A DNA stretch of 64,000 nucleotides from Microbacterium sp. Au-Mic1 (GTDB lineage: Bacteria; Actinomycetota; Actinomycetes; Actinomycetales; Microbacteriaceae): assembly GCF_021341785.1 (NCBI RefSeq), contig NZ_JAJTTF010000007.1:124001-188000 (forward strand), in the 5' to 3' direction. Position numbers and translations under genes: made by a program. Positions 58,914 through 63,557 of the stretch are shown here, in pieces (position 1 is the first letter of the stretch; every line of letters starts with the position of its first letter). The notes under the pieces were generated by a model. That model made no database searches. It had not been told where the DNA came from and worked only from the letters and a program-made list of their open reading frames with translations.

Positions 58914-59147
58914 TCAGTAGTGCGGTGGAACCTCGCGACGCAGCGCCGCATCGTTCGGACCCGCCGCGCTCTTCGCCTGCGCCCCGGTGTCCCGGTCGCG
59001 TTCGTCCGGCTCGGCATGCGTACCCGGCGCCGGGGTGAGCTTCGCGCGCCGCGACCCGCGCACGCGCACGACGCGCTGGCGGGATCCGGCTCCGTCCGCA
59101 CCCGCCTCGGTGGACGCGGACGTCGGCTCAGGCTCGCCGTCAGGCAT
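58914..59147 (-). CDS. small hypothetical protein, coupled to the helicase-like gene
   Basis: 77 residues, strongly charged and Pro/Ala rich, ending REVPPHY. The ATG overlaps the stop of the 1232-residue gene by 8 bases (ATGCCTGA), the usual coupling here, which argues for a real gene. No domain recognised. Probably disordered. Confidence 0.5.
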   Translation of the reverse strand: MPDGEPEPTSASTEAGADGAGSRQRVVRVRGSRRAKLTPAPGTHAEPDERDRDTGAQAKSAAGPNDAALRREVPPHY

Positions 59148-62100
59148 CGTCGACGTCGAGCGGCTGGGTGTCGCCGTCCACGCGCGGCGCGTCGAGGGGC
59201 ACCCCGAGCACCTCGCCGATGCGGCGCGCGACGCCGGCAGGATCGCTGTACAGGTCGAAGGCGTGCACCCTGATGTAGTGCCAGCCGAGGCGCCGCAGCA
59301 CCTGCGGGCGCAGTCGCAGGGTCTCGCGAAGCGACTCAGGACGAGACTCCGGATCCGGCTCGATCACGACCGCCTTGCCGGCGTGCTGCGCCACGAGGGG
59401 CAGCAGCCCGCGGTAGTCCACGTCCACCGAGACCCCGATGCGACGCAGCTCTCGCGCGAGCGCGAGCGTCAGCGGATCCGCCTGGTCCTCCGCGCGATCC
59501 TCGCGCGTGTGCCCGGCGAGGTCGCCGAGGATCGACATGAGCGTGGCCGCACCGTGGTCGAGACGCCCTTCGTCGAACGAGGACGGGCGGATCGAGGAGA
59601 CCATCACCATCGAGCGGCGCGCCCTGGTCATGCCGATCGTGAGCAGGCGGTCACCATCGGGCGAGGACAGGTCGCCGAAATCGCTGAGCACGCGGCCGTG
59701 CTTGGTGACGCCGTAGCCGAGCGAGAAGATCACGCGGTCACGGCTCTCCGCCGCCGCCTCCTCCAGCGTCAGCACGATGAAGGGCTCCTGCGTGTCGCGT
59801 CCGACGAACTCGGCCACGTCGCTGCGCCCCGCGAAGGCGATGGACACCGCCGCGAAGACCCGTTCGGCGTGCGTGCGGCTCGCCGTGACGACCATGAGCG
59901 ACTCGGTCGGACGATGCACCGCGTGCTCCACCACGAGCGTCACGACGCGGGCGACCTCGGCCTCGGGGCTCTCCATCGCGCCGGTCTCCGGGTGCGGGAT
60001 GCCGACCCCGCCCTCGACGTAGTCGACGGTCAGGGATCCGCGACCCAGGTAAGAACCGGCCCAGGGCAGCGAGACGATCTCGCCGCCGTAGAACGCGTCG
60101 TTGATGAGTGACGCAAGGTCCTCGCCGCCGGCCCGGTAGCTGCGGGTCAGCGTGACCACGGGCAGAAGTTCGGAGAGGCGCTCGAACACCGAGACGTCGT
60201 CGAACGGCTCCTCCACCTCACGGTCCTCCGCAGGCATCGTCGCCACCTGGAACGCGGTCGGCTTCTGCAGCACCGGGTCGCCGAACGCGACGATCTGACG
60301 GGCACGGCGGATGGCAGGGGTCGCCTCGGCCAGGTTGATCGCGGCGGCATCGACGAGGATCACGGTGTCGAACTCGACGGAGTCGGGCAGATCCGGCACC
60401 TGATAGGGCGAGGCGATCCAGACCGGCGCGAGCACGCGCATGAGCGTGGGCGCCGCGGCCACCAGCTCGGCGACGGTGGTGCGATGCTGCGTGAGTCCGT
60501 GACGGAGGTTCTGCGCCTCTGCGGCCTCATCGACGATCGAGATCCGCCACTGGCCGCTCAGCTGCCAGGCGAGCAGCGGCCCCGCGGCGCCGGCGTGCGC
60601 CTCGTCGACGAGGCGGAAGTCGCGCTCGAGCTGGTCGACGACCGAGGTGTTCGCCCCCAGCAGCGAGCGGTTCTGCCGGAGAGCCTGCTCGAGCAGGGAC
60701 TGCCACCAGGCGTACTCCAGCTCCGCGCCGACACGATCCTCGGAGAGGTGTCGGGTGGACAGGTCGATGAGCAGCGGCTCGAGGCCGAGCCCCGCCAGTT
60801 CGTCGCGGATACGGGCGCGCTCGATGAGATTCTCGAAGACGTCCGACTTCGCGGCGAGGCCGGCGAGCGTGCGCAGCAGGCGCGCGACGGGCAGCGTCGC
60901 GAGCGGCTCGCGGCGGCCCAGCGCCGCATCGAGCTCGGCAAGCTGCGCGTCGACATCGCGCCAGGCCACCGAGGCGTCGGCGAGCCCGAGCGGTACCTCG
61001 GGGGCGACGCCGGCATCGACGTAGCGCTGCCACTCGGTGCGCTGGGCCTGGATGCGCGTGAGCGCGTCGTGCATGTCGCCCACATGCGCGCCGGGGCGCA
61101 CGTACTCCTTGGCGAGCTGGCGCAGCCGACGACGGTTCGCGCCGGTCAGCGCCGCGCTCTCCCTGCGGCTGCCGTGGGCCTTGATGAGCTCTCCGAGCGG
61201 ACGCTCGAACACGGCCGGGGTGAACCGGTCGAGCGAGTCGCGGATCCCCTGGAGCAGGCGCAGGTACTCGCCGAGCTCGGAGATCGTCGAGAACGGACGC
61301 ATACGCGTCTGGGCGACGAGCTCGTAGCCCTGCTCGAGCAGATCCGGCACGGTGCGGGCATGCAGCCCCTCGGCGAGCGCGTGCACGCGATGCGCCTCGT
61401 CGGAGGAGGAGAAGACCACCCCGTACCAGGGCGAATCGTCGGGCCCGAACCGGAACTCCCCCAACCGCGCGGCCTGCGCGAGCGCTTCGGCGGCGTGGGT
61501 CCGATCCTCCGCGAGATTCTGCAGCGCGGGCCGGCCGAGCCGGGCCGTGGTGGACGGCGGCGTCGGCAGCAGCGCGAGCCGGGTGAGCATACGAGTGGCG
61601 TCGAGCACGCTGGCGCCCAGCGCCGGGTCCCTCTCCGTCAAAGCACGGCGGTAGTCGCGCAGCACCGTGCGCAGTCGGAGCAGGGCGTCATCGATCTCAG
61701 CGAGCTTGGGCGCGGCGGCCTTCTCGTTGCGGCCGATCGCGCGCACCAGATCCCGGCGCACGGAGGCCGGGGAGACCGCGAAGCCGTCCAGCCCGATCCC
61801 GCTCAGGCGGTGCCGCACGCCGTCGAGCGTCGAACGGCGGGGCGAGACGACGAGTACGCGCTTGCCCGCGCGCACCAGCTCGCCGATGGCGTTGATCACG
61901 GTCTGGGTCCCGCCGGTTCCCGGCAGCGTCGAGACGGTGAGCGAGTGCCCGGCCGCGATGCGCGCGAGAACCTGCTCCTGCTCGTTGTCCGCGTCGAGGA
62001 GGAGGTTGTCCGAGGCCGGAGCCCGGTCGTCCGGACCGGCGGCGGACGGGGTCGGACCGGGTGCGGTCACACGCTCGCGATCGGCGGCGTGCCCGGCCAG

Positions 62101-62838
62101 TGCGTTGAGCACGGGATGGTCGAGGTCGTGCGCGTCGCGGGCCATCGCGGTGCCGACATCGGCGAAGGTGGACACCACCATGCGCGGCTGCACCGAGAAC
62201 GTGTCGACGGACGACGTCGCCGCACGGAGCATGTCGATGGCGGGCTGCGGGGCGAACACCCCGTTCTGATATGCCAGGGCCGCGAGCCTGGCATCGTCGA
62301 TCGTGATCCCGAAGTGATCACGGGCGATGCGCACGAGCTCGGGGTTGAGGAAGAACTGTCCGTGCAGCTTCAGCTCATAGTCGGCGTAGTGCCGTCGGAT
62401 CGCGAGCGGCCGCAGCAGCATCGGGGCGGCGTAGTCGACACCGCCGATCCGCCAGGTGCACAGCCCGACCGCGAGGTGCACGGCGTCGAGACCGCGCACG
62501 GTGCGCAGCTCGGTGTTCTTCGCCGTGATGCGGTCAGCGGCCAGACGGGCGTTGCGCAGCCCCACCTCGTCGCGGAACAGGTTCGAGAGCAACGTGGAGC
62601 GGCCGGTGATGAACTGGGGCAGGCTCCCGGGGTGCGCCCGGGAGATGTCGATCCCGCCGGCGGCGACATCGCGATAGGCCGTGAGCGGCGATGGCCCGCC
62701 GAGCTCCGCGGCCTCCGCCCTGAGACGAGCCCGTTCGACGGTCGCAGCGTGCGCCACTTGCACGCCCGGCTCCGCCACGTCGACGTCGCTGGGCGTCACG
62801 GACCTGTCCTCCGCGTTCTTCCCGTCACGTCGCCACAC
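59140..62838 (-). CDS. DUF4011/MTES_1575-type helicase-nuclease homologue with degenerate ATPase
   Basis: 1232 residues. The N-terminal about 270 residues resemble the DUF4011 region of UPF1-like superfamily 1 helicases. The Walker A loop reads LPGTGGTQTV, with Gly-310 in place of the catalytic lysine. The motif II region reads VILVDAAAINLAEA, with Ala-831 in place of the glutamate of DE. Later motifs are kept: FGDPVLQKP, TRSYRAGGEDLASLINDAFY and TIGMTRARRSMVMVSS. The C-terminal about 90 residues have the shape of the MTES_1575-type restriction-endonuclease-like domain, ending RLGWHYIRVHAFDLYSDP, but its expected acidic core is not evident. GTG start 7 bases after TAGTCT. Likely a non-hydrolysing DNA-binding scaffold. 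Confidence 0.75.
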   Translation of the reverse strand: MWRRDGKNAEDRSVTPSDVDVAEPGVQVAHAATVERARLRAEAAELGGPSPLTAYRDVAAGGIDISRAHPGSLPQFITGRSTLLSNLFRDEVGLRNARLAADRITAKNTELRTVRGLDAVHLAVGLCTWRIGGVDYAAPMLLRPLAIRRHYADYELKLHGQFFLNPELVRIARDHFGITIDDARLAALAYQNGVFAPQPAIDMLRAATSSVDTFSVQPRMVVSTFADVGTAMARDAHDLDHPVLNALAGHAADRERVTAPGPTPSAAGPDDRAPASDNLLLDADNEQEQVLARIAAGHSLTVSTLPGTGGTQTVINAIGELVRAGKRVLVVSPRRSTLDGVRHRLSGIGLDGFAVSPASVRRDLVRAIGRNEKAAAPKLAEIDDALLRLRTVLRDYRRALTERDPALGASVLDATRMLTRLALLPTPPSTTARLGRPALQNLAEDRTHAAEALAQAARLGEFRFGPDDSPWYGVVFSSSDEAHRVHALAEGLHARTVPDLLEQGYELVAQTRMRPFSTISELGEYLRLLQGIRDSLDRFTPAVFERPLGELIKAHGSRRESAALTGANRRRLRQLAKEYVRPGAHVGDMHDALTRIQAQRTEWQRYVDAGVAPEVPLGLADASVAWRDVDAQLAELDAALGRREPLATLPVARLLRTLAGLAAKSDVFENLIERARIRDELAGLGLEPLLIDLSTRHLSEDRVGAELEYAWWQSLLEQALRQNRSLLGANTSVVDQLERDFRLVDEAHAGAAGPLLAWQLSGQWRISIVDEAAEAQNLRHGLTQHRTTVAELVAAAPTLMRVLAPVWIASPYQVPDLPDSVEFDTVILVDAAAINLAEATPAIRRARQIVAFGDPVLQKPTAFQVATMPAEDREVEEPFDDVSVFERLSELLPVVTLTRSYRAGGEDLASLINDAFYGGEIVSLPWAGSYLGRGSLTVDYVEGGVGIPHPETGAMESPEAEVARVVTLVVEHAVHRPTESLMVVTASRTHAERVFAAVSIAFAGRSDVAEFVGRDTQEPFIVLTLEEAAAESRDRVIFSLGYGVTKHGRVLSDFGDLSSPDGDRLLTIGMTRARRSMVMVSSIRPSSFDEGRLDHGAATLMSILGDLAGHTREDRAEDQADPLTLALARELRRIGVSVDVDYRGLLPLVAQHAGKAVVIEPDPESRPESLRETLRLRPQVLRRLGWHYIRVHAFDLYSDPAGVARRIGEVLGVPLDAPRVDGDTQPLDVDDA

Positions 62839-62851: not shown

Positions 62852-62999
62852 GGCGTGCGGGATGGGCAGAACCGTCAGATCCGCTGGGTTTCGCCGGATT
62901 CAGGCGCTTTCTTCCTCCACAGCGGGCATTTTCCGGTCGTTCCTCACCGATTGCGCCTCTACGCCTCCGCCGGTCCGGGTGGTGACCGAGGATGGGTGC

Positions 63000-63557
63000 A
63001 TGACCTACCGCTACGACTTCGCCGACACCCCGTTCGGAGATGCGCTGCTCGTCTTCTCCGACGAGGGGCTGGTCGCCTTCGACCTGCCGGAGGGGATGCA
63101 CCGCGATTCGCCCTGGGCGCTGGAGGCGACCGCGCGGATGCTGCACGCGCTGCCGGAACCTGATCCGGGTGCCGGCGCCGACGTGGAGGCACTGCTGAAC
63201 GCGTACTTCGACGGAGCCCCGATCCGCTTCGATCGGGAGCTCGCGCTGGACTGGCGCCTCGTGAACGGCTTCACCCGCGCCGCGCTGCAGGCCGTGTCCG
63301 AGATCCCCTGGGGCGAGAGCGCGAGCTACGGCGAGGTCGCGGCGATGGCCGGCAGTCCCGGCGCCGCCCGCGCGGTGGGCACGGCGTGCCGGAACACCCC
63401 TTTCTCGATCGTCGTCCCCGTCCACCGCGTGGTGCGCGCCGACGGTTCACCCGGCCAGTACGGAGCGCACCCCGAGCGCAAGCGGTACCTGCTGGACCTG
63501 GAGGCGGATGCGGCCGCCCGAGGCCGCACCGCGGACGACGTCCGCCCCGGCGTGTAG
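63000..63557 (+). CDS. O6-alkylguanine transferase homologue lacking the catalytic cysteine
   Basis: 185 residues, full Ogt/MGMT length with N-terminal domain. The DNA-binding core is clear: IPWGESASYGEVAAMAG, ARAVGTACRNTP and then IVVPVHRVVRADG. In active enzymes the last motif is PCHR; here Val-141 (codon GTC) replaces the acceptor cysteine, so alkyl transfer is not possible at that site. Short alkyltransferase-like proteins (ATL) replace it with Trp or Ala and flag lesions for excision repair; this protein is longer and uses Val. GAGGA lies 7 bases before the ATG. Divergent from the degenerate helicase gene. Confidence 0.85.
   Translation: MTYRYDFADTPFGDALLVFSDEGLVAFDLPEGMHRDSPWALEATARMLHALPEPDPGAGADVEALLNAYFDGAPIRFDRELALDWRLVNGFTRAALQAVSEIPWGESASYGEVAAMAGSPGAARAVGTACRNTPFSIVVPVHRVVRADGSPGQYGAHPERKRYLLDLEADAAARGRTADDVRPGV

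Follow-up and report, generated by a model that had tools for sequence, protein, structure and literature searches.

A gene of Microbacterium sp. Au-Mic1 encodes an Ogt-fold protein that fails the defining feature of the enzyme, the cysteine that accepts the alkyl group. Valine stands at that position, or alanine in a subclade, the gene is under purifying selection, and the loss of the cysteine is coupled to the loss of an asparagine at the hinge, all within what is predicted to be the complete two-domain fold. We lean toward reading the protein as a retired alkyltransferase turned lesion reader, which would act in the manner of the alkyltransferase-like proteins (ATLs) as a flag for excision repair. 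The larger claim, that full-length Ada-like Ogts with the nucleophile and the Asn hinge both lost, fixed genus-wide, make up a second, independent class of alkyl-lesion flag, is put forward tentatively.

Identification of the Cys-less Ogt homolog

The window is the stretch of 64,000 nucleotides of the Au-Mic1 genome that was analyzed, and the gene lies near its end (Table 1), running from ATG to TAG. PF01035 aligns over residues 91-169 of the product with E = 1.7 × 10−27 and TIGR00589 matches with E = 1.2 × 10−22, both above their curated cut-offs, and the Pfam model of the N-terminal domain, PF02870, falls under its cut-off with 13.8 of 21 bits. An in-frame ATG exists upstream at 62862; when the start codon nearest to the 63000 position is chosen per locus, it falls exactly at the equivalent position in 44 of 63 loci. 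The N-terminal domain is the less conserved one, with a mean share of the commonest residue of 0.60 versus 0.78 for residues 89-170 over the 120 distinct Cys-less sequences.

The structure predicted from 15 aligned Cys-less proteins, of which the window protein is the first, contains both AGT domains with a mean pLDDT of 89.2 and a pTM of 0.84. Its top fold match is M. tuberculosis OGT, by Foldseek (TMq 0.75) and by VIA-align 2, aligned with Z = 20.4 over 164 residues, spanning model residues 2-182 at 35 percent identity. The S. pombe and Vibrio ATL structures match model residues 88-171 only, at Z = 10.1-10.5.

The initial annotation had described a full-length Ogt homolog with Val in place of the acceptor cysteine and with the DNA-recognition helix and arginine finger kept. 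The two-domain predicted fold and the PF01035 match bear out the first part, the GTC codon of the PVHR motif the second, and the invariance of Tyr110 and Arg124 the third. We take Tyr110 to be the equivalent of the human base-flipping Tyr114 and Arg124 that of the human arginine finger Arg128; likewise, Cys130 presumably occupies the position of human Met134, Thr133 that of Asn137, and Glu168 that of Glu172. Tyr110, Arg124, His142, Arg143, and Glu168 are all present in the window protein.

Table 1. Positions of the Cys-less gene, its landmarks and its neighbors in the window, with loci of paired Ogt genes elsewhere
Feature	Position	Strand	Description and basis
Cys-less two-domain Ogt homolog	63000..63557	+	185 aa plus stop; ORF, domain and fold searches
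N-terminal domain	63000..63263	+	about residues 1-88; predicted fold and conservation
Helix-turn-helix region	63327..63392	+	residues 110-131, helices 110-116 and 123-131; model and alignment
Cys130	63387..63389	+	alignment
Thr133	63396..63398	+	at the Asn hinge position; alignment
PVHR motif	63417..63428	+	Val141 (GTC, 63420-63422) at the acceptor-cysteine position
Glu168	63501..63503	+	alignment
Helicase-like gene	59140..62838	-	1232 aa
GAF and LuxR-type regulator	63896 onward	+	L001:2127-2981
Classic/second-type Ogt pairs			L127, L134, L143, L144, L154, L161, L163, L165, L168, L171

The acceptor position across Microbacterium

Some match is present in all 295 genomes of the genus, a count that includes PCHR paralogs, and five genomes of 44 to 87 percent completeness (G039, G055, G109, G158, and G239) have weak matches only. 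The locus itself was read in 144 of these genomes plus 3 more, the 144 being a non-random choice of best matches, a middle band, and low scorers, and corresponding to 145 loci with the window genome counted twice. The acceptor residue is Val in 128 of the 144 genomes, Ala in 12, and Cys in none. The other four comprise three frameshifted copies (G001, G183, and G255), where the other frame still gives PVHR (L269-L271), and one copy under a run of N (G042). Among the three further genomes, G112 has Val, and G169 and G230 have Ala. A second collection of 63 loci has PVHR in all 54 of the loci L034-L087, which are 53 Microbacterium, Microbacteriaceae, or actinobacterial records and one from Kocuria coralli (L087), and its other nine loci have PCHR (4), PWHR (4), and PWWR (1). 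With Val or Ala in 140 of the 144 genomes and PVHR in those 54 loci, the conservation of the residue among relatives, on which the initial annotation had hung its reading, holds up.

The window gene has GTC, two changes from TGC as had been pointed out, and the commonest codon in the loci read is GTG. Over the 129 Val loci, the codon is GTG in 111, GTC in 12, GTT in 4, and GTA in 2, and four different codons for one amino acid indicate that the residue itself is held. The dN/dS ratio, taken over the 55 pairs that can be formed from the window gene plus ten of its close relatives, has a median of 0.16 and a maximum of 0.25, so that purifying selection acts on the Cys-less gene. The PVHR protein is neither a sequencing slip nor a dying gene.

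The alanine version reads PAHR and is found at loci L190, L194, L195, L199, L204, L227, L230, L235, L314, L320, L322, L326, L346, and L355; the eight PAHR rows entered into trees lie close together, inside the PVHR clade. PAHR had been listed beforehand as a motif of known ATLs, and for that the literature examined offers no confirmation.

A second change, at the hinge

The alignment holds 141 Cys-less rows with Val or Ala (V/A), representing 120 distinct sequences and including some species from both collections, next to 78 PCHR rows. Only two of the tabulated positions differ from every PCHR row. One is the acceptor, Cys in 78/78 PCHR rows and in the V/A rows Val (133) or Ala (8). The other is the hinge, Asn in 78/78 PCHR rows and in the V/A rows Thr (126), Ser (14), or, in Kocuria coralli, Ile (1). 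The Ala subclade and the coupled loss of the Asn hinge are both observations new since the initial annotation.

The DNA-reading residues are kept: Tyr110, Arg124, Gly127, Pro134, Pro140, His142, Arg143, Val144, and Glu168 are invariant in all 141 V/A rows, Glu168 being kept although the cysteine for it to activate is gone. Three other residues mark the nearest relatives. Cys130 is found in 141/141 V/A rows and in 59 of the 64 non-classic PCHR rows, and in 0/14 classic Ogt and 0/10 ATL rows; Asp84 and Gly152 are found in 58 and 62 of the 64 non-classic PCHR rows and in none of the 10 ATL rows.

A missing Asn hinge is described as a further mark of ATLs beside the absent Cys (PMC10779285), and for the human protein it has been proposed that the contact between Asn137 and Met134 is lost once Cys145 carries a group (PMC10814553). 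For SsOGT mutants at the cysteine, PMC4605297 reports that C119A keeps its architecture and binds methylated DNA, and that C119L and C119F lower the Tm by about 35 degrees. A branched Val should put strain on a pocket that has the Asn hinge, much as S-alkylation does in human AGT; the Thr or Ser at the hinge probably gives Val the space it needs. Taking the hinge literature together with the behavior of the three SsOGT mutants, the paired replacement of Cys by Val and of Asn by Thr seems to give a stable form of the protein that would bind lesions without reacting.

Descent of the V/A clade

The initial annotation had suggested that the protein evolved independently of the ATLs. This is favored for the Microbacterium clade, not proven: the best-scoring tree and the residues Asp84, Cys130, and Gly152, common to most non-classic PCHR rows, speak for it, and the approximately unbiased (AU) test does not reject a single origin of the Cys-less proteins. 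Eight matches that lack the motif were set aside, as was a false motif at L241. The ATL rows enter as long branches without N-terminal domain columns; ten rows carry the ATL label, and four of those labeled PWHR are actually PWWR.

In the 129-row tree, the 41 Cys-less rows form one group (SH-aLRT 92), placed among PCHR rows and away from the ATLs (99). A 90-row tree, built with a masked acceptor residue after 39 PCHR rows had been dropped (among them L003, L088, L089, and L091), keeps the 40 Microbacterium rows together (99/79) with the Kocuria row outside, and its own 39 PCHR rows all lie to one side of a single branch (89/88). In a tree without ATLs, rooted on classic Ogts, 18 V/A rows are nested among PCHR rows; V/A plus L152 is supported at 95.3/99 and V/A alone at 79/83, with several weak inner branches (38.5/90 and 83.6/53 among them). 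The trees thus disagree on the point at which the V/A clade joins.

The AU test sets omit the Kocuria locus in both cases, and the later set omits 22 further V/A rows, leaving 67. There the best score goes to the tree that groups V/A with the second-type PCHR rows, and grouping all Cys-less rows together is worse by 17.3 log units at full length and by 16.0 with the C-terminal domain. One Cys-less origin is not rejected, with p = 0.141 at full length and p = 0.197 for the C-terminal domain. An earlier test gave p = 0.881 for one origin, rejected neither grouping, and revealed that better trees had escaped the quick tree search.

The alternative is that one ancient loss of the cysteine gave rise both to the PWHR/PWWR ATLs and to the V/A clade, a history that would itself be compatible with a flag function. 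The AU results, the 39 PCHR rows standing to one side in the 90-row tree, and the lack of the Asn hinge in both groups all fit it. Against these stand the 17.3 and 16.0 log units by which the tree with second-type PCHR rows is better, the N-terminal domain that V/A proteins keep, and the absence of Asp84, Cys130, and Gly152 from every ATL row, and we judge this shared descent unlikely.

Distribution outside the genus

The Val/Ala form is almost confined to Microbacterium in what we have read. Elsewhere in Microbacteriaceae, 84 loci (L103-L186) from 67 genomes and 35 genera, out of 84 genera with matches in the family, have PCHR without exception. An order-wide search of 248 genomes gave, in its best 30 loci, 9 with Val or Ala, all Microbacterium, and 21 with PCHR. 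The sole PVHR case found beyond Microbacterium and its kin is from Kocuria coralli (L087:4971-5525). It possibly represents a separate loss of the cysteine; we count it neither as kin nor as convergence because its branch is long and its place shifts between trees. At the hinge the Kocuria protein has Ile, and its active-site loop is altered.

A plasmid origin was considered and dropped, as tblastn against plasmids returned 232 records, all below 60 percent identity. In a literature search that mostly left subscription papers uncovered, we found no PVHR alkyltransferase-like protein and no C145V alkyltransferase. Nor did the same search find Microbacterium together with methylguanine and alkylation, although with subscription papers mostly uncovered the clade may still be described.

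Genome and neighborhood

PF01035 matches three genes of the window genome (4.01 Mb in 20 contigs). Besides the Cys-less gene these are two PCHR genes, which supply the active-type ogt elsewhere in the genome that the initial annotation had asked after, and none of the three is a PWHR gene. One of the PCHR genes lies directly 3' of a reading frame that we take to be AlkA-like from sequence features. A full-length UvrA is encoded on contig C11 and the window is on C18, so the Cys-less gene has no linkage to excision repair. The neighbors searched with Pfam, which are the helicase-like gene, MscL, and the GAF-LuxR gene, include no excision-repair genes.

The divergent neighbor is the helicase-like gene, which matches PADLOC PDC-S37 (3.8 × 10−91) and more weakly, below cut-off, the Pfam nuclease family MTES_1575. 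It is matched in 53/53 of the loci L034-L086, the match in L086 being partial and farther away, and this raised the possibility of a dedicated partner. It is also matched in 90/90 Microbacteriaceae genomes of 85 genera, so it is family-wide despite its defense-system label, and it is matched beside 0/84 of the other-genus Ogt loci. Within flanks of about 1.5 kb it is absent from L102, L207, L209, L210, L213, and L214, where the Val gene is present, and it is absent as well beside L216, a locus cut by a contig end. The partnership is therefore rejected, and the family-wide occurrence indicates that the pair is inherited gene order and not a module.

The GAF and LuxR-type regulator lies 3' in many relatives, at varying distance. 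In other Microbacteriaceae, ten loci carry a classic and a second-type Ogt, both PCHR and both on one strand, separated by about 0.6-0.8 kb (Table 1).

Proposed function

In the line of descent that we infer, an ancestor of Microbacterium would have had a second, Ada-like Ogt in which Val (in a subclade, Ala) replaced the acceptor Cys and Thr or Ser replaced the hinge Asn, and which kept the two-domain fold, the helix-turn-helix, the base-flipping Tyr, the arginine finger, the His, and the Glu. Such a protein would flip O6-alkylguanine, or O4-alkylthymine, into its pocket and, being unable to take the alkyl group, would stay bound and mark the lesion. The mark would most simply recruit UvrA-dependent excision repair, as with ATLs, and the two PCHR proteins of the genome would carry out direct reversal. 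ATLs contact UvrA and UvrC and hold O6-alkylguanine tightly; an extended N-terminal helix, a C-terminal extension loop, and an enlarged pocket tighten this binding (PMC10779285). It counts against the flag reading that the inactive human C145A raises killing by MNNG in E. coli (PMC10814553), which indicates that a dead Ogt can do harm when it is unlinked to a pathway.

A different role would be a regulator that works independently of damage, with Val and Thr imitating an alkylated Ogt or Ada C-terminal domain that makes protein contacts or binds promoters. The nearest PCHR relatives are Ada-like, Val is branched and bulkier than Cys, Val or Ala is present in 140/140 readable in-frame copies, and alkylated MGMT is described as a presumed regulator of transcription (PMC10814553). 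We consider this improbable, as the 185-aa protein has no fused activator domain by Pfam, Ala, the residue in 12 of the 144 genomes, imitates S-methylcysteine poorly, and a promoter binder would not need the Tyr and the arginine finger that are invariant in 141/141 rows.

Slightly less probable again is a shield or competitor, which would bind lesions and delay direct reversal, balancing the PCHR transferases against other pathways without recruiting excision repair. Interference with active transferase has been reported both for inactive C145A AGT and for the E. coli ATL (PMC10814553), and two PCHR genes share the genome; conservation across a whole genus under purifying selection is hard to explain for pure interference. 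A move of the alkyl acceptor to Cys130, which lies in the recognition helix and, if we are right to regard it as a pocket-wall residue, beside the base pocket, is very improbable, since this cysteine, for all its presence in every V/A row, appears to be inherited, 59 of the 64 non-classic PCHR rows having it together with a normal acceptor. An inactive relic on its way out is disfavored just as strongly: three of 144 genomes do have frameshifted copies, but the motif is in frame in 140, dN/dS is 0.16, four codons hold Val, the DNA-reading residues are invariant, and two of the three broken copies come from assemblies that consist of one contig and are only 96 and 92 percent complete, which suggests reading errors there, the third (G001) being rated 100 percent.

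To our knowledge, ATLs are the one known case in which the fold of a suicide repair enzyme has become a damage flag. If a second, independent class of flag is real, a few residue changes are enough to turn a transferase into a protein with ATL-like function, and the N-terminal domain can be retained. The class would offer a second, younger case in which the loss of the Cys, the loss of the hinge, and the gain of tight binding are separable by residue swaps, and since close active relatives exist the transition can be tested within one family. There is also a consequence for annotation: TIGR00589 places the protein above cut-off as a methyltransferase, a name that is probably wrong for the whole genus.

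Comparison with known systems

The ATLs, such as E. coli Atl/YbaZ, S. pombe Atl1, and Vibrio Atl, likewise have neither the acceptor Cys nor the Asn hinge, and they keep the helix-turn-helix Tyr and the arginine finger as the V/A protein does. In some species they coexist with active transferases (PMC10779285). The differences are that ATLs are single-domain proteins, mostly with Trp at the site (10/10 rows here), whereas the V/A protein has an N-terminal domain, which sets it apart from a standard ATL, and Val or Ala. The Pro after the hinge position is present in 141/141 V/A rows and is a gap in 8/10 ATL rows, and the C-terminal segment of the V/A protein is of the Ogt type, unlike that of ATLs.

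M. tuberculosis OGT is the closest fold, but it is a transferase with PCHR and with Asn at the hinge position. SsOGT C119A and C119L, in which the Cys gives way to a small or a branched residue as it does here, are engineered single changes, for which no change at the hinge is mentioned (PMC4605297). Closest in sequence are the Ada C-terminal domain and the second-type Ogts of Microbacteriaceae, PCHR proteins of two domains, most of which share Asp84, Cys130, Arg146, and Gly152 with the V/A protein; measured against whichever of six V/A queries matched best, the second-type Ogts in the first-ranked rows (L103-L181) show about 39-55 percent identity. Each of the 64 non-classic PCHR rows has both the Cys and the Asn hinge, and the V/A protein has neither.
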